Assembly: GCF_001561915.1 (NCBI RefSeq)
Contig: NZ_LSKU01000001.1
Location: 408,311-464,345 of the forward strand
Reading direction: 5' to 3'
DNA length: 56,035 bases
Origin: Tepidibacillus decaturensis
GTDB taxonomy: Bacteria > Bacillota > Bacilli > Tepidibacillales > Tepidibacillaceae
Under the pieces are notes generated by a model. The model was given only the letters and a program-made list of their open reading frames with translations. It made no database searches and was not told where the DNA came from. Below are positions 23,879-31,502 of the stretch, piece by piece; within the stretch, counting starts at the first letter, position 1, and every line of letters begins with the position of its first letter. Position numbers and translations under genes: made by a program.

Positions 23879-24034
23879 GAGATACTCAATCGCTTTGATC
23901 ACATTGAGAACCAACTGAATGGTTTTGACGTGGAACTAACGTTTTAAGAGGATATTATGAATTTCCTCTCCAAAAATAGTTAACTATTTAGACACAATAT
24001 TGACATAGACATGACTAAATTAGAAAGATTATAA
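23879..24034 (+). pseudogene. Decayed coding remnant downstream of jetD
   Basis: One frame reads EILNRFDHIENQLNGFDVEL, a stop, then EDIMNFLSKNS, a stop, then LFRHNIDIDMTKLERL. The composition is that of a helical or coiled-coil protein, but two in-frame stops and no start argue that it is dead. Identity unknown. The rest of 23843-24165 holds the copper-operon promoter region and no other gene I can support. Confidence 0.25.
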
Positions 24035-24065
24035 TTTATAATATACTACACGGGGGTATGGGTAT
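24006..24065 (+). promoter_or_regulatory. Promoter and CsoR-type operator ahead of the glutaredoxin gene
   Basis: TAGACA (24006-24011) and TATAAT (24030-24035) are 18 bases apart; a second TATAAT lies at 24037-24042. Directly after the -10 lies ATACTACACGGGGGTATG (24043-24060), continuing GGTAT. It closely resembles the G-rich pseudo-palindrome that B. subtilis CsoR binds upstream of copZA. Its position would block the promoter when copper is low. Confidence 0.65.
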
Positions 24066-24165
24066 AATTTGTGATGGATTTTTGTTTAGAGAAAATATTG
24101 ATTTGGACAAATTAAAAAAGAATTAAAATTGAATTAGGATTTATGGGTTTGAGGGGGTGATATGG

Positions 24166-24441
24166 ATGGAAAATATTACATTAGAACTATTTACAAGGCC
24201 AACATGAATAGATTGTCAAGCGGCGAAAGAGTTTCTTTCCCAACACAATATTGACTATGTAGAACATGATCTTAGTATTCATCCTGAAAGGGAGGATCTA
24301 CTAAAAGAGGTTTCTGGTACAAGAATTGTTCCTACCTTTGTTTTTCAACAACCCGGTTTATTTGGCCTTTTTAAAAAGAAAAAAATACTTATTGGTTTTG
24401 AAGTGAACGAAAAAGAAATAAAGAAATTACTTTTAGGATAG
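24166..24441 (+). CDS. Glutaredoxin-like protein with in-frame TGA at the catalytic position (candidate selenoprotein)
   Basis: A 91-codon thioredoxin-fold protein. Reading from ATG 24166 (GAGGGGG site 8 bases ahead) gives MENITLELFTRPT, then TGA at 24205-24207, then IDCQAAKEFLSQHNIDYVEH and, later, GTRIVPTFVF with the cis-proline. In the related NrdH/YruB-like glutaredoxins the motif reads TRPTCxDCQAAK, so the TGA replaces exactly the nucleophilic first Cys of CxxC. A hairpin begins 14 bases after the TGA. Coding character continues undisturbed to TAG 24439-24441. I infer selenocysteine: a UxxC redox protein. Alternatives are a point mutation or base-call error at a TGC/TGT codon. It is transcribed from a CsoR-type promoter and precedes csoR, copA and copZ, suggesting a role in copper-linked thiol redox. 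Confidence 0.7.
24222..24241 (+). promoter_or_regulatory. Candidate bacterial SECIS hairpin
   Basis: GG, a bulged C, then GAAAGA pair with TCTTTC and CC around a GTT loop (24231-24233). There are 23 bases between the TGA and the loop G. Bacterial SECIS elements lie within the coding sequence just 3' of the UGA with a G in the first loop positions at about this distance, so geometry fits. A hairpin this small can also occur by chance. Confidence 0.5.
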
Positions 24442-24460: not shown

Positions 24461-24517
24461 TTTACACCCTTCAATAGATACGGTATAATTTAATACATAA
24501 AGGGGGTAGGGGTATGG
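24461..24517 (+). promoter_or_regulatory. csoR promoter with second CsoR-type operator
   Basis: TTTACA (24461-24466) and TATAAT (24484-24489) are exactly 17 bases apart. ATACATAAAGGGGGTAGGGG (24493-24512) follows and overlaps the csoR ribosome binding site, with GTATGG reaching the start codon. It resembles the upstream operator, implying autoregulation. Confidence 0.65.
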
Positions 24518-24804
24518 AAAACTTAAATGAGCATATGCACCCAAATGAGATGAATCAAAAAATTCTTCAACGTTTAAAACGAATCGAGGGACAAGTGCGT
24601 GGTATTCACAAGATGGTAGAAGATGATCGTTATTGTGTAGATGTCTTAATTCAAATTGCAGCTGTACGTGCTGCTTTAGACAAAGTTGGATTATCCTTAT
24701 TAGAGAGACATACACACGGATGCGTCCAAAAGGCAATTAAATCTGGTAATGGTGATCCTGCGATTGATGAATTGATGGATGTTATTAAATTGTTTATTAA
24801 ATAG
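24514..24804 (+). CDS. csoR: Copper-sensing transcriptional repressor CsoR
   Basis: A 96-residue all-helical DUF156 repressor. The Cu(I) ligands Cys-His-Cys are present: Cys in DDRYCVDVL near residue 46, then His and Cys in [12 protein letters not shown] near residues 71 and 75. The [15 protein letters not shown] helix carries the conserved DNA-binding basic residues. CsoR represses copper efflux genes and releases DNA on binding Cu(I). The start at 24514 is set by AAAGGGGGTAGGGG, which also forms part of the operator. It is transcribed with copA 28 bases downstream. Confidence 0.95.
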
Positions 24805-24832: not shown

Positions 24833-27043
24833 ATGGTGACGGAAGCAAAGGATCTTGGCTATGGTGTAGCAAAGGAAAAAGTAGAATTAGATCTAATTGG
24901 AATGACTTGTGCTGCATGTTCCTCACGAATCGAAAAGGGATTAAATAAAATACCAGGTGTTTACTCTGCTACAGTCAACCTGGCGCTGGAAAGAGCAGTT
25001 GTCGAATACAATGCTGAAGAAGTAGATGTGGATGATTTTATAAAGAAAGTTAGGGACTTAGGATATGATGGAAAAGTTCATGAGGATGAAGTGGATCAAC
25101 AATCTGCTAAGGATAAAGAATTAAGTAAAAAGAGAACCAAGTTGATCATTTCTTCTCTCTTATCCCTTCCCCTATTATGGAGTATGTTGGGTCATTTTGG
25201 GGTTATGTATTTGGTGCCAGAAATCATCATGAACCCATGGTTTCAACTTCTTTTAGCAACACCAGTTCAATTCTATATTGGTTATCAATTCTATCATGGT
25301 GCTTATTCTGCTTTGAAAAATGGTAGTGCTAATATGGATGTCCTTGTTGCATTAGGAACATCTGCTGCTTACTTTTATAGTATTTATGGAATAATTATAG
25401 GCACTCATCAACTTTATTTTGAAACGAGTGCAGTCCTGATTACGCTCGTTTTATTTGGTAAATATTTAGAAGCCTTAGCGAAAGGTCGAACATCTGATGC
25501 GATTAAAAAATTGATGAGCTTACAAGCAAAGACTGCGATGGTTGAAAGAAACGGAGAACCGATTGAAGTTCCAATTAAAGAAGTGGTAAAAGGAGATATC
25601 ATCATTGTTCGCCCTGGGGAAAAAATCCCTGTTGATGGTGAAATTATCGAGGGCTATTCGTCTGTTGATGAATCCATGATTACAGGGGAAAGTATTCCAG
25701 TCGATAAGAAAGTTGGCGATATTGTCATTGGGGCTACAATCAATAAGCATGGTTCTTTTAAGTTTAAAGCGATAAAGGTTGGGAAAGATACAGCCTTAGC
25801 ACAAATTATTAAAGCGGTAGAACAAGCCAATAGTACGAAAGCACCCATTCAACGGATGGCTGATGTGATTTCGGGGATATTCGTGCCGATTGTTGTGGCC
25901 ATCGCTATTTTAACCTTCTTAGGTTATTACTTCTGGCTAGATCCTAACAATTTTGAACATGCCTTAGTGAATGCGATAGCCGTTCTCGTTATTGCTTGTC
26001 CATGTGCATTAGGTTTAGCAACACCAACTTCTATTATGGTTGGGACCGGTAAAGCAGCTGAACATGGGATTCTTTTCAAAGGTGGAGAACACTTAGAAAA
26101 CACTAAAAAAATCAATGCGATTGTATTAGATAAAACAGGCACCATTACCAAAGGGGAGCCTGAATTAACAGATTATATTGCGATTGATGCAAGTGAACAG
26201 GAATTATTACAATATGCTGGTTCCATTGAAAAAACGTCTGAACATCCGATTGGTAAGGCAATTGCTAAAGGCGTAGAAGAAAAAGGAATCGACTTGCTTC
26301 AAGTCAAAGATTTTGAGATTCTTCCTGGCAAAGGTTTAAAAGCAAAAGTGAACGATACGATGGTTTATGTGGGAACACGTAAATTAGTAAGAGAAATTGG
26401 ACTTGATCCAGCAGCTATTGAAGAAAAAATGGCTCAATTAGAAGCACAAGGGAAAACAGTTGTTTTAGTTGCTACTCCTGATAAATTATTAGGAATCCTT
26501 GCAGTGGCTGATACGGTAAAAGCTGACTCAAAAGAAGCCATTGCCAAATTAAAAGAAATGGGTATCAAAGTCGTGATGATTACCGGGGATAATCAACGTA
26601 CCGCAAAAAGTATAGCTCAAGAAGTGGGTGTTGATGAAGTTCGTGCAGAAGTAATGCCTGAAGATAAGGCAAAAGAAGTTGAATCCTTAAAAACTCAAGG
26701 ATATACAGTTGCCATGGTTGGCGATGGCATCAATGATGCTCCAGCATTAGCTACTGCAGATGTAGGGATGGCAATTGGAACTGGAACAGATATTGCGATT
26801 GAAGCAGCCGATGTTACCTTAATTGGTGGGAGCTTAAAAGGGGTTGCAGATGCAATCTATATTAGTAAACAGACCTTAAAAAATATTAAGCAGAATCTAT
26901 TTGCTTCTTTATTCTACAATTCAATTAGTATTCCAGTAGCAATGGCAGGTCTATTAGCACCTTGGATTGCAGGAGCTGCGATGGCAATGAGTTCTGTCTC
27001 AGTCGTTCTTAACTCCTTACGATTAAAAAATATTAAATTTTAA
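24833..27043 (+). CDS. copA: Copper-exporting P1B-type ATPase CopA
   Basis: A 736-residue Cu(I) efflux pump of the cytoplasmic membrane. In order: one heavy-metal-associated domain with [15 protein letters not shown] (residues about 23-37), the membrane region with [12 protein letters not shown] near 390, phosphorylation site [11 protein letters not shown] near 433, nucleotide-binding SEHPIGKAI, hinge [16 protein letters not shown], and the C-terminal [14 protein letters not shown] that completes the copper site. ATG 24833 follows AAAGGAG by 8 bases; an upstream GTG (24824) overlaps that site. The N-terminus [18 protein letters not shown] resembles the tail of a lost first HMA domain, since B. 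subtilis CopA has two. Confidence 0.95.
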
Positions 27044-27123: not shown

Positions 27124-27330
27124 ATGGAAAAAGTAATTAAAGTAGAAGGTATGACATGTAATCATTGCAAAATGGCGGTAGAAGGGGCACTAAAAAAATT
27201 AGCAGGTGTCTCCAATGCGGTTGTTAGTCTTGAGAACAAAAATGTAACGGTTTCTTTCGATGAGGGAAAAGTAACTTTTGAACAAATGAAAGAAGCGATC
27301 GAAGACCAAGGCTATGATGTTGTTGCATAA
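27124..27330 (+). CDS. copZ: Copper chaperone CopZ
   Basis: A 68-residue soluble ferredoxin-fold HMA protein, VEGMTCNHCKMAVEGAL, in which the two Cys bind Cu(I) for delivery to CopA. GGAGGG stands 9 bases before ATG 27124. It follows copA by 80 bases; in B. subtilis copZ precedes copA, so the order is reversed here. Confidence 0.95.
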   Translation: MEKVIKVEGMTCNHCKMAVEGALKKLAGVSNAVVSLENKNVTVSFDEGKVTFEQMKEAIEDQGYDVVA

Positions 27331-27566: not shown

Positions 27567-27631
27567 TTGCAATATGCAAGGACAATCCTGACTAAATTAG
27601 TCAAGTTTATACGTTAAAGGGGGAAATGGAA

Positions 27632-28669
27632 TTGGTAAAAATTTTAGGGGCACGCCGATTACGGTGGGTAGGGATGTTTGTAATGATCATTTCTTTATTT
27701 TTAACCGCCTGTGGAGCAAACAAGGAGCAGCAAGCAAATACAAATCCACAAACAAAAGAAAAGCTACGTATTGGTTATTTAAACGTGATGGATGATGCTC
27801 AAGTGATGCTTGCTTATGATGCAGGTTTTTATGAAAAGAATGGGTTAGAAGTGGAAGTTCAAATCTTTAATAGTGGGCCTGAAATGATTAAAGCGATTGT
27901 TGGAGGACAATTAGACGCAGGGGTGCTTGGATTTACAAATGCTGTTACATGGGCTGATAAAGGTGCTGATTTAAAAGTAATCAGCGGTGCGCAAATGGGT
28001 TATCACAGTCTATTAGTGCGAAGTGATCGTAATATTAAGACGATACCAGATTTGAAAGGAAAGCAACTAGCTACACAGAAACAAGGGAGCACAGCAGACA
28101 TCGTGCTAAATGGTGTTGTACTGAAAGAGGGTAATCTTACACGTAATGATGTGAATATGGTTTATGTTTCACCAAGTGTGGCGATCCAATCCTTAACAGC
28201 TGGGAAAGTAGATGCTGCTTTTCTCTTTGAACCATATGATCGAATTGCTCGTAAAACCATTCCTGTAACGCCACTTTATGATGTTGGAGAAGAATGGCCT
28301 TTCCCATGTATGGTGGCAATAACCTCAGGAAAAATTCTTCAAGAAAAACAGATTGCGATAAATAAGATGTTAGATGCTCAAAAAGAAGCGATTGAGATGT
28401 TAGAAAATCAACCAAAAGAAGCAGCAAAAATATTGGCAAAACGTTTTATTGAAACAGAAACCATCGATACAACAAATGGGAGAATCAATTCAGTAGACTT
28501 AATCGCTGAAGCAATTGAAGCTCAAACCTTTAATTGGGAAATTACTCAAGAGAATATTCAACAAATGAAAGATATTGTACAAATGATGGTAGATCAACAA
28601 ATGCTATCAAAACCTCTAAATGTAGAGGATATTCTTGATTTATCTTGGCAAAACAAAAAACAATCTTAA
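27632..28669 (+). CDS. ABC transporter substrate-binding lipoprotein (SsuA/TauA/NMT1 type)
   Basis: A 345-residue lipoprotein with signal FVMIISLFLTACG; the Cys is lipidated. The mature part has the NMT1/SsuA pattern: LRIGYLNVMDDAQVMLAYD, VGGQLDAGVLGFTNAV, KGKQLATQKQGSTADIV and AGKVDAAFLFEPYD. TTG 27632 is preferred because AAAGGGGG lies 8 bases ahead; ATG 27626 is only 2 bases from it. Being under an S-box, its ligand is probably a sulfur compound (sulfonate, taurine or a methionine precursor); the exact ligand cannot be read. Confidence 0.85.
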   Translation: MVKILGARRLRWVGMFVMIISLFLTACGANKEQQANTNPQTKEKLRIGYLNVMDDAQVMLAYDAGFYEKNGLEVEVQIFNSGPEMIKAIVGGQLDAGVLGFTNAVTWADKGADLKVISGAQMGYHSLLVRSDRNIKTIPDLKGKQLATQKQGSTADIVLNGVVLKEGNLTRNDVNMVYVSPSVAIQSLTAGKVDAAFLFEPYDRIARKTIPVTPLYDVGEEWPFPCMVAITSGKILQEKQIAINKMLDAQKEAIEMLENQPKEAAKILAKRFIETETIDTTNGRINSVDLIAEAIEAQTFNWEITQENIQQMKDIVQMMVDQQMLSKPLNVEDILDLSWQNKKQS

Positions 28670-28683
28670 GATGGTGACTTCAA

Positions 28684-29532
28684 GTGAAAAAAGAATCACA
28701 AATCATCAAGTCTATTGCTAATCAAACCATATTAAAACCGAATAAAAAGGTCAAGCGTCTAAGTATAAAATCGACACTTCCATATGTTTATGCGATTGTT
28801 ACACTACTCGCTATATGGCAAATTACCGCATGGTTTTTACCAAACTTTTTATTACCAGATGTAGTTAATGTCTTTCAGCGATTTCTTAGTGAAGTAAAAG
28901 ATCCAGCATTTTTAGACAGCATTCAAAGTAGTCTAATTCGATTAATCATTGGGTATCCTTTAGCTTGTCTTCTAGGTTCTTTATTTGGCTTATTGTCTGG
29001 TTTATCGAAGGGATTTAAAATCTATCTAAAAAATGTAATTTCAATATTGCAATCAATCCCTCCAATAACGTGGATTCCATTTTTAGTTATTTTATTTGGG
29101 TTTGGCGATCTTCCTATTATCATCGTGATCACGATTGCCAGTTTCTTTCCTATGGCTTTAGCGATGATTAATGCGACAGAAAATATAAATCGCACTCATC
29201 TCGAACTAGCAAAGGTATTAGGTGCGAATAAAAAACAATTAGTAACAAAAGTTTTTCTGCCTGAAACCTTTCCATCTTTTTTAACAGGTGCTCAAGTTGC
29301 TTTTGGCAATGCTTGGAGATCGCTTGTGGCTAGTGAAATGGTTGGAGGAGCAGCAGTTGGTCTTGGTTGGTCGATTAGTTATGCAGGGGAAATTGCCGAT
29401 ATGGAAGGAGTTCTTCTTAATATTGTAGTGATTGGTGGGATCGCCCTCATTCTAGATCATCTTGTTCTTGAGCAGTTAAAAAGGAAATTTCTTCGGTGGC
29501 GTGATCTGACAGGAGGAGGGGGTTCAGTATAA
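28684..29532 (+). CDS. ABC transporter permease (SsuC/TauC type)
   Basis: A 282-residue inner-membrane permease with six predicted helices and a binding-protein-dependent transport signature (TENINRTHLELAKVLGANKK; EAA-like loop near residue 165-185) that contacts the ATPase. GTG 28684 is 14 bases after the lipoprotein gene; the ribosome binding site is weak, so coupling is likely. Its stop overlaps the ATPase start by one base. Confidence 0.9.
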   Translation: MKKESQIIKSIANQTILKPNKKVKRLSIKSTLPYVYAIVTLLAIWQITAWFLPNFLLPDVVNVFQRFLSEVKDPAFLDSIQSSLIRLIIGYPLACLLGSLFGLLSGLSKGFKIYLKNVISILQSIPPITWIPFLVILFGFGDLPIIIVITIASFFPMALAMINATENINRTHLELAKVLGANKKQLVTKVFLPETFPSFLTGAQVAFGNAWRSLVASEMVGGAAVGLGWSISYAGEIADMEGVLLNIVVIGGIALILDHLVLEQLKRKFLRWRDLTGGGGSV

Positions 29533-30272
29533 TGCAAACAATCAAGTTGGAGAATGTTAGTAAATCTTTTGGCGATTTAAAGGTATTATCTAATGTGAAC
29601 TTTTCTGTTGAAAGTGGTGAATTTGTTGCCATCGTCGGTCCTTCAGGTTGTGGAAAGAGCACAGCATTAAGAATGATTGCTGGTTTAGAAAAACCAACCA
29701 CAGGGAAGGTAATGGCTAATGAACAGATCATTGATCAGCCTGATCCAGAGCGGACTTTAATTTTCCAAGAGCACGCTCTATTTCCTTGGCGTACAGTTGG
29801 TGAAAATGTAGAGTTTGGTTTAGAGCTAGCAAATGTTGCTAAAGAAGAAAGGGAAGCACGTATTCAAGCGATTCTTATCAAAGTTGGATTAACAGATTTT
29901 AAAGATTACTATCCAGGACAGTTATCTGGAGGAATGCGTCAACGTGCTTCCATAGCCCGTGCATTGGTTATGGATCCAGATGTGTTATTGCTTGATGAAC
30001 CTTACGGTGCCTTAGATGCCATAACTAAATTAAAAATGCAAAATGAACTGATGAATTTATGGTTGGGTTCTCAGAAAACGATGATTCTGATTACCCATGA
30101 TATTGATGAAGCGATTTACTTGGCCGATAAAATTTTTGTGATGAGTCCAAGGCCTGGTTATATCAAAGATATGATTATTGTTGATCTTCCAAGACCTCGT
30201 AATCGAAATGGAACTGAATTTATCAAGATAAGAGAAAGAATCATGAATGAACTTGATCTAACTACTAACTAA
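29532..30272 (+). CDS. ABC transporter ATP-binding protein (SsuB/TauB type)
   Basis: A 246-residue ATPase: Walker A GPSGCGKST near residue 36, Q-loop LIFQEHALFPW, signature LSGGMRQRASIARAL near 136, Walker B VLLLDEPYGALD near 156 and switch His in LITHDIDEA. The FPWR-T-EN pattern after the Q-loop is typical of the nitrate/sulfonate/taurine group. ATG overlaps the permease stop (TAATG). Confidence 0.93.
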   Translation: MQTIKLENVSKSFGDLKVLSNVNFSVESGEFVAIVGPSGCGKSTALRMIAGLEKPTTGKVMANEQIIDQPDPERTLIFQEHALFPWRTVGENVEFGLELANVAKEEREARIQAILIKVGLTDFKDYYPGQLSGGMRQRASIARALVMDPDVLLLDEPYGALDAITKLKMQNELMNLWLGSQKTMILITHDIDEAIYLADKIFVMSPRPGYIKDMIIVDLPRPRNRNGTEFIKIRERIMNELDLTTN

Positions 30273-30284
30273 GAGGTGATTTGA

Positions 30285-31502
30285 ATGCAAACAAACGTAA
30301 CCGTTGCTAATCCTGCCCCTTCACGGGTAGGATATAATCGTTCTATTATAATTGCTACGATATTTGTGGCTTTCATCGGTGTTGTTTACTTATATCAAGC
30401 CGTTTCTTTACGCCAGGCTTCACTATATTTTGTAGGAATCATTGCAGGAATTGCTTTATATCATGCTCATTTTGGTTTTACCTCTGCATGGAGACACTTT
30501 ATTTTAAATCGCCGTGGTGAAGGGATTCGCGTGCAAATGCTTTTAATGATGCTGGGGAGCTTTCTTTTCTTACCCTTATTAATTCAAGGTTCCTTTTTTG
30601 GCCAAACGGTTAATGGGTATATAAGTTCTGTTGGGATCTCTCTTTTATTCGGAGCATTCATTTTTGGGATTGGCATGCAATTAGGAGATGGATGTGCATC
30701 AGGAACACTATACCACTTAGGTGGTGGTGATCTTCGTGCTCTGAACACATTAATTTTCTTTATCATTGGTTCTGTACTTGGAGCAAAAGATTTTCAATGG
30801 TGGATGGATACACCAAATATTGGCCCAGTTTCTTTTCTGAATAATTTCGGAATTTGGCAAGGGATTGTTATACAAATGATTCTAGCGGTCATCGTTGTTG
30901 CCATTTCCATGTATTTGGAACGTAAACGACATGGTAAGTTGTTGAAAAGTAATCAACGGCCAAACAAGGATTGGAAAGTCATCTACCAAGGTCCTTGGTC
31001 ATTAGTCACTGGAGTTATTATTTTAGCATTGGTTCAATTTGCTATTTTCGTTCTCTCTGGAAAACCATGGGGAATTACCTCTGCTTTTGCTTTATGGGGT
31101 TCAAAAATAGTGAGGGCACTCGGCGTACCAGTGGAAAGTTGGGGATATTGGCAAACACCAGCAAGGGTTAATGAATTGAATGGGAGTATTTTTGCTGATG
31201 TTACCTCTGTACTTGATATAGGAATCATATTGGGCGCATTACTCGCTGCTGCACTTGCTATACGTTTTACCAAACCCGTTCAATGGAAATTTTCGACTCG
31301 TTCAATCATAGGAACTGCAATCGGTGGAATGTTAATGGGATATGGTGCTCGAATTGCCTTTGGGTGCAACATCGGTGCTTTCTTTAGTGGAATTGTTTCT
31401 TTTAGCTTACATGGCTGGTTATGGTTTGTAGCAGCCTTTATCGGTTCAATCATTGGGGTTAAACTTAGACCATTATTTGATCTTCAAAATCATGTAAAGT
31501 AA
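30285..31502 (+). CDS. YeeE/YedE family sulfur transporter
   Basis: A 405-residue integral membrane protein with about ten helices and the two family motifs FGIGMQLGDGCASGTLYHLG near residue 125-145 and YGARIAFGCNIGAFFSG near 350-366. The Cys residues in these motifs form the relay that passes thiosulfate in characterised YeeE (TsuA). Placement at the end of an S-box operon supports a thiosulfate or related sulfur substrate. GAGGTGATTTGA precedes ATG 30285. No TusA-like YeeD gene follows, though one often does. Confidence 0.9.
   Translation: MQTNVTVANPAPSRVGYNRSIIIATIFVAFIGVVYLYQAVSLRQASLYFVGIIAGIALYHAHFGFTSAWRHFILNRRGEGIRVQMLLMMLGSFLFLPLLIQGSFFGQTVNGYISSVGISLLFGAFIFGIGMQLGDGCASGTLYHLGGGDLRALNTLIFFIIGSVLGAKDFQWWMDTPNIGPVSFLNNFGIWQGIVIQMILAVIVVAISMYLERKRHGKLLKSNQRPNKDWKVIYQGPWSLVTGVIILALVQFAIFVLSGKPWGITSAFALWGSKIVRALGVPVESWGYWQTPARVNELNGSIFADVTSVLDIGIILGALLAAALAIRFTKPVQWKFSTRSIIGTAIGGMLMGYGARIAFGCNIGAFFSGIVSFSLHGWLWFVAAFIGSIIGVKLRPLFDLQNHVK

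Follow-up and report, generated by a model that had tools for sequence, protein, structure and literature searches.

The DNA analysed here is a stretch of 56,035 nucleotides from Tepidibacillus decaturensis, referred to below as the window. It contains a copper locus in which a short glutaredoxin-like gene, called grx here, is followed by genes for a repressor, a copper-translocating P-type ATPase and a copper chaperone (Table 1). Since the best model for the repressor, RicR, scores below its cut-off, the protein is assigned to the CsoR family only. The grx frame is open except for a single in-frame TGA, and it comprises 91 codons if this TGA is read through. An earlier note on this DNA had described a glutaredoxin-like frame of that length with an intact ribosome binding site and with TGA in place of the first Cys of the CxxC motif. 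It had inferred from this a UxxC selenoprotein controlled by CsoR-type operators, which would link selenium to copper stress.

Table 1. Features of the grx copper locus, with positions counted from the first nucleotide of the window.
Feature	Position	Strand	Basis
grx promoter-like site, TAGACA, 18 nt, TATAAT (11/12)	24006-24035	+	consensus match only
Predicted CsoR-type operator 1, TACTACACGGGGGTA, just downstream of the grx -10	24044-24058	+	TAC-N9-GTA rule; no binding data
grx ribosome binding site, GAGGGGGTG	24151-24159	+	sequence
grx, predicted 91-aa Sec-containing glutaredoxin (UxxC), read through TGA (ATG 24166, TAG 24439-24441)	24166-24441	+	sequence, Pfam, homologues, AlphaFold
Predicted selenocysteine codon TGA (codon 14), first active-site Cys position	24205-24207	+	TGA shared by six relatives of the clade and four plasmid genes; Cys homologues have TGC/TGT
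Predicted bacterial SECIS hairpin, loop GUU 24231-24233	24222-24241	+	conservation, covariation, bSECIS loop, stem and spacing rules
csoR promoter-like site, TTTACA, 17 nt, TATAAT (11/12)	24461-24489	+	consensus match only
Predicted CsoR-type operator 2, TACATAAAGGGGGTA, between the -10 and the csoR start	24494-24508	+	TAC-N9-GTA rule; no binding data
csoR, 96-aa CsoR-family repressor, Cys...His..Cys ligand pattern (YCVDV...ERHTHGC)	24514-24804	+	best model RicR, 85 bits, below cut-off 175
copA, copper-translocating P-type ATPase	24833-27043	+	TIGR01511, 629 bits, cut-off 397
copZ, copper chaperone	27124-27330	+	NF033795, 107.5 bits, cut-off 91

Around codon 14 the grx product reads MENITLELFTRPT-U-IDCQAAKEF..., with the TGA at the position of the first active-site Cys. 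The Pfam glutaredoxin model PF00462 matches the product with 51.8 bits against a gathering score of 22.9 (E 9e-14), which together with the sequence confirms the frame as it was first described; the ribosome binding site is likewise intact. The VP motif, which holds the cis-Pro of glutaredoxins, is conserved across the aligned homologues. An AlphaFold model (pLDDT 92) has the glutaredoxin/thioredoxin fold, and the best Foldseek matches are glutaredoxin and thioredoxin folds. The top one is 7c10, 'Dithiol cGrx1', which is also the second-best PDB match by sequence and which we take to be Grx1 of Clostridium (Alkaliphilus) oremlandii. The C-terminal half of the product is longer, with GFExN replacing the usual glutaredoxin C-terminal motif, and because of this difference we infer that its reductant may be something other than glutathione. 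As for bacillithiol, the BshA-like matches in the T. decaturensis genome stay below the cut-off (143 versus 273.7 bits). In the NCBIfam search the product did not exceed the cut-off of any family, and membership of the UXX-star family NF041212 was rejected (42.4 bits, cut-off 66).

The genome (2.96 Mb, 99% complete) contains the machinery for selenocysteine insertion. Profile searches find selA (611.8 bits), selB (351 bits, or 370.6 when a neighbouring match in frame is counted) and the tRNA-Sec gene selC (67.8 bits, anticodon TCA); a selD gene close to selA was identified by eye. The lack of selB or selC, named beforehand as an outcome that would refute the selenoprotein, is thus not met. The selD frame has an in-frame TGA of its own, reading ...NKSG-U-GCKIG..., and read through it would be a second UGA-containing selenoprotein gene in this organism. 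It lies at L043:12829-13902 on the minus strand (about 792.8-793.9 kb of contig C1 of the genome, G000), and a GGTCC-TGA-GGACC hairpin is found downstream of the TGA of NKSG-U-GCK. An open reading frame resembling tRNA selenouridine synthase was also seen near selB, by eye only.

We now consider the hairpin behind the TGA. It begins 14 bases after this codon and has a stem of six base pairs with two outer pairs, and its loop G stands 23 bases downstream; the geometry first noted, including the GTT loop, is correct in every respect. The published bSECIS model calls for a loop of 3-9 nt with G within the first two positions, a stem of 4-16 bp, a distance of 16-37 nt from the UGA and a minimum free energy of -7.5 kcal/mol or lower (PMC13188914). 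Folding under this model, which the earlier note had suggested as a check, gives a divided answer. The loop, stem and spacing rules are met, but the energy is borderline, the core being just short of the cut-off at -7.1 kcal/mol and reaching -9.1 kcal/mol with the flanking helix included. Depending on the span that is folded, the single-sequence z-score is between -0.7 and -2.1. Folding alone is weak evidence for a SECIS element, and the weight rests on conservation.

Because the folding energy by itself is unremarkable, the conservation of the hairpin was examined. The sequence GAAAGAGTTTCTTTC is retained, together with the TGA, in relatives of only about 50% protein identity. All 18 TGA genes scored keep at least five of the six core stem pairs in register with the TGA, whereas only 5 of the 91 Cys genes do so (Fisher p 2e-16). 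In a set of 19 TGA sequences, substitutions affect both members of the outer pairs (C-G, U-A, G-C), with a covariation score above those of all 500 shuffles and of all versions in which the hairpin was slid along.

The codon itself is conserved in the same manner. Two relatives with 50-52% protein identity to grx carry TGA at the equivalent position, and a class-wide profile search added four more, giving six clade relatives in all (G004, G023, G288, G292, G254 and G095). Four Sec copies were found on Bacillaceae plasmids (Mesobacillus foraminis Bac44, Cytobacillus pseudoceanisediminis BNO1, C. firmus M7 and C. oceanisediminis 2691), and TGA at the Cys position occurs in more distant glutaredoxins as well; no further Sec copies were found in the family of G292. 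Most homologues in the class have TGC or TGT here, as do all 80 loci from named genomes that represent the Cys members of the clade. It is important to bear in mind that the scan giving these 80 loci, some of which are near-duplicates, was queried with a Cys-containing peptide pattern and could return only Cys homologues; the Sec forms come from separate whole-genome and plasmid searches. The codon, whose state in homologues had been proposed as a further check, is thus either TGA followed by the hairpin or TGC/TGT mostly without it, and the homologues do not terminate there. All 10 genomes with TGA copies have selA, compared to 1 of 12 with Cys copies (p 3e-5), although this p-value and that of the hairpin contrast are optimistic since the sequences are related. 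The machinery, the conserved TGA and the hairpin together support the proposed UxxC selenoprotein, in the absence of any selenium or protein data.

In the tree, the grx product falls within the copper-linked Cys clade and G292 within another part of it, and in this tree Sec and Cys have been exchanged more than once. The Sec rows branch off close to the base, with support too weak to order Sec and Cys, and the direction remains unresolved. One Cys glutaredoxin (TGT; L175, genome G694) keeps all six SECIS-like stem pairs and has an internal TAG, and it is possibly a recent change from Sec to Cys.

Gene finders take the selenocysteine codon for a stop, and the Sec form is therefore easily missed. 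The plasmid loci L213:5043-5282, L208:4076-4270 and L211:14001-14267 are annotated as truncated proteins (WP_081757328.1, WP_257535868.1) or carry no listed feature. The annotated C. oceanisediminis gene starts directly after the TGA, those of M. foraminis and C. firmus start deeper in the frame, and for the C. pseudoceanisediminis gene no feature is listed. Other in-frame TGAs were noticed close to TGA-glutaredoxins. In G016 (L158:8087-8437, minus strand), a lipoprotein with a heavy-metal-associated domain, located directly before the glutaredoxin, has its GMTCxxC motif as GMT-TGA-ASC and is likely a second Sec protein in a metal cluster. In G081 (L159:6190-6470, minus strand), the frame downstream of the Sec-glutaredoxin has zinc-ribbon-like CPVC motifs and seemingly more in-frame TGAs.

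The link to copper can be judged from the operators and from gene order. Type 2 CsoR sites follow the pattern TAC-N9-GTA with a G-tract (PMC3902906), and the window contains exactly two such sites, against 0.23 expected by simulation. These are the predicted operators before grx and csoR, and the CsoR-type operators of the original proposal are thus found, with the regulation still a prediction. A strict form, TAC-N5-GGGGGTA, occurs four times in 2.96 Mb, and three of the occurrences precede grx, csoR and a second copA; this form was picked after the sites had been seen, while the looser literature rule returns the same two in the window. As no forward-strand terminator was found between grx and csoR, the two genes may also share a transcript.

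A CopA match lies no more than 6 kb from the gene in 78 of 80 Cys homologues, in many cases adjoining it, and in Sporosarcina the order is grx-csoR-copZ-copA with the Cys form. The other Sec copies are divided, with two in copper loci and at least five outside. In G292, csoR-copZ-copA lies about 3 kb away on the same strand and an operator-like site is present about 145 nt upstream of the Sec gene. In M. foraminis, the plasmid copy shares a cluster with copZ and with genes for a CsoR-type regulator, a multicopper oxidase and a P-type ATPase. In G288, csoR and copZ are about 7.5 kb away, and no copper genes were seen near the Sec copies of G004, G023, G254, G095 and the Cytobacillus plasmids. 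Copies of this last kind indicate that the association of the Sec form with copper is not universal. The two operators, the synteny in Bacilli and the two further Sec copies in copper loci nevertheless support the suggested copper link, whose function is predicted.

Two other observations concern the copper loci. Directly after copZ, positions 27626-31502 encode an SsuA/SaoX-like ABC transporter and a YeeE/YedE-family membrane protein (159.7 bits with the selenium YedE model, cut-off 350), families that are linked to sulfur or selenium and to metal resistance. In addition, the copper loci of contigs L146 and L130, filed under Cuspidothrix issatschenkoi and Segetibacter koreensis, match Staphylococcus entries of the same scan and are probably contamination.

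On the basis of these results, we propose that grx encodes a selenoprotein glutaredoxin within the CsoR copper regulon, a reading to which we assign a probability of about 0.8. The UGA at codon 14 would be decoded as selenocysteine by SelA, SelB, SelC and SelD, directed by the downstream hairpin; we regard this part as practically certain, even without protein or selenium-labelling data. Apo-CsoR would occupy the TAC-N9-GTA operators, which overlap the regions where grx and csoR-copA-copZ start, and would be released by Cu(I), such that excess copper induces the Sec-glutaredoxin alongside the exporter and the chaperone. Control of both units by CsoR and Cu(I) is very probable, but it is deduced from sequence, with neither CsoR-binding nor transcript data at hand. 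The selenolate/thiol pair could then reduce copper-oxidised disulfides, or mixed disulfides, at Cu(I)-binding Cys sites of CopZ, of the CopA N-terminal domains and of CsoR, whose cysteines must be reduced for Cu(I) binding. Selenocysteine would here give a faster enzyme that is more easily regenerated after oxidation, and the protein might possibly carry Cu(I) as well. This reductase role is inferred and remains tentative, with somewhat less than even odds. A direct role of the Sec-Cys pair in binding Cu(I) and handing it on, which would make the protein a CsoR-induced copper chaperone or buffer based on selenium, is in our view unlikely; were it true, selenium supply would set copper tolerance.

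A number of other explanations have to be weighed. A point mutation or sequencing error that turned TGC or TGT into TGA has in its favour only that most class homologues carry those codons, and it cannot account for a TGA and hairpin kept in independent genomes and plasmids, for the otherwise intact frame or for the full Sec machinery; raw reads aside, it is effectively excluded. A reassigned code, in which UGA would be read as Trp or Cys, is rejected just as firmly. No support for it was found, tRNA-Sec, SelA and SelB are present, the UGA stands at a Cys position together with a hairpin, and the neighbouring genes are ordinary table 11 frames. The UGA could also act as a selenium- or stress-dependent stop, with a short peptide as the main product and the hairpin only setting read-through into the operon. 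UGA decoding in bacteria is generally incomplete, and grx is possibly co-transcribed with csoR, given that no forward-strand terminator was found between them. However, the residues after the TGA are conserved as protein and in loci of this kind the Cys homologues yield a full-length protein, which leaves very little room for such a switch.

The decoding being accepted, the copper neighbourhood could still be incidental, with grx a real Sec-glutaredoxin that serves as a general thiol reductase and has no role in copper. The at least five Sec copies without close copper genes (G004, G023, G254/G095 and the Cytobacillus plasmids) fit this well. On the other hand, it leaves unexplained the CopA match near almost all Cys homologues, the CsoR-type operator of grx itself and the two more Sec copies in copper loci, and we consider it improbable, the assignment of grx to the copper regulon being preferred.

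It is useful to compare grx with known systems. Sec glutaredoxins as such have been described (PMC1794560, PMC13188914), and like the grx product they consist of a glutaredoxin domain with UxxC. One of them, C. oremlandii Grx1, is described as the reductant of a selenoprotein methionine sulfoxide reductase (Kim et al. 2011, cited in PMC13188914) and not as a copper protein, unlike our reading of grx. The grx product differs from the clostridial Sec-glutaredoxins in its longer C-terminal half and GFExN, and it stands apart in the tree from those sampled. The UXX-star proteins (NCBIfam NF041212, NF041211) are also small glutaredoxin-like selenoproteins with Sec at the same place, and they have been linked to metal or metalloid handling (review PMC13188914). 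In Bordetella, the copper-induced PrxGrx of copZ-prxgrx-gorB (PMC7794356) is likewise a glutaredoxin activity that a copper sensor controls jointly with a copper chaperone, but it is a peroxiredoxin fusion, depends on glutathione, is controlled by CueR/OxyR and involves no selenium. Human glutaredoxin-1 passes Cu(I) to Atox1 and ATP7B (PMC7057996), its targets being a copper chaperone and the metal-binding domains of a P1B ATPase, as proposed for the grx product; being eukaryotic, Cys-based and without a copper-responsive operon, it is an analogy of mechanism only. Closest are the Cys glutaredoxins beside copA/csoR in Sporosarcina, Staphylococcus, Planococcus, Rossellomorea and others, which share clade and locus type with grx, but have Cys for Sec and, few exceptions aside, no SECIS-like hairpin.

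Sec-glutaredoxins and copper-induced glutaredoxins are thus known separately, whereas a search for selenium with CsoR or with copper-operon glutaredoxins, from which subscription papers were mostly absent, returned no account of a Sec glutaredoxin belonging to a CsoR copper regulon. The present reading would tie the use of selenocysteine to copper-stress control in Bacilli. It also draws attention to a conserved glutaredoxin, apparently not described so far, that many bacilli and staphylococci encode in their copper loci and whose Sec form annotation pipelines truncate or miss. Occurring naturally both with Sec and with Cys in loci of one type, this family would offer a clean test of what selenium contributes under copper stress.
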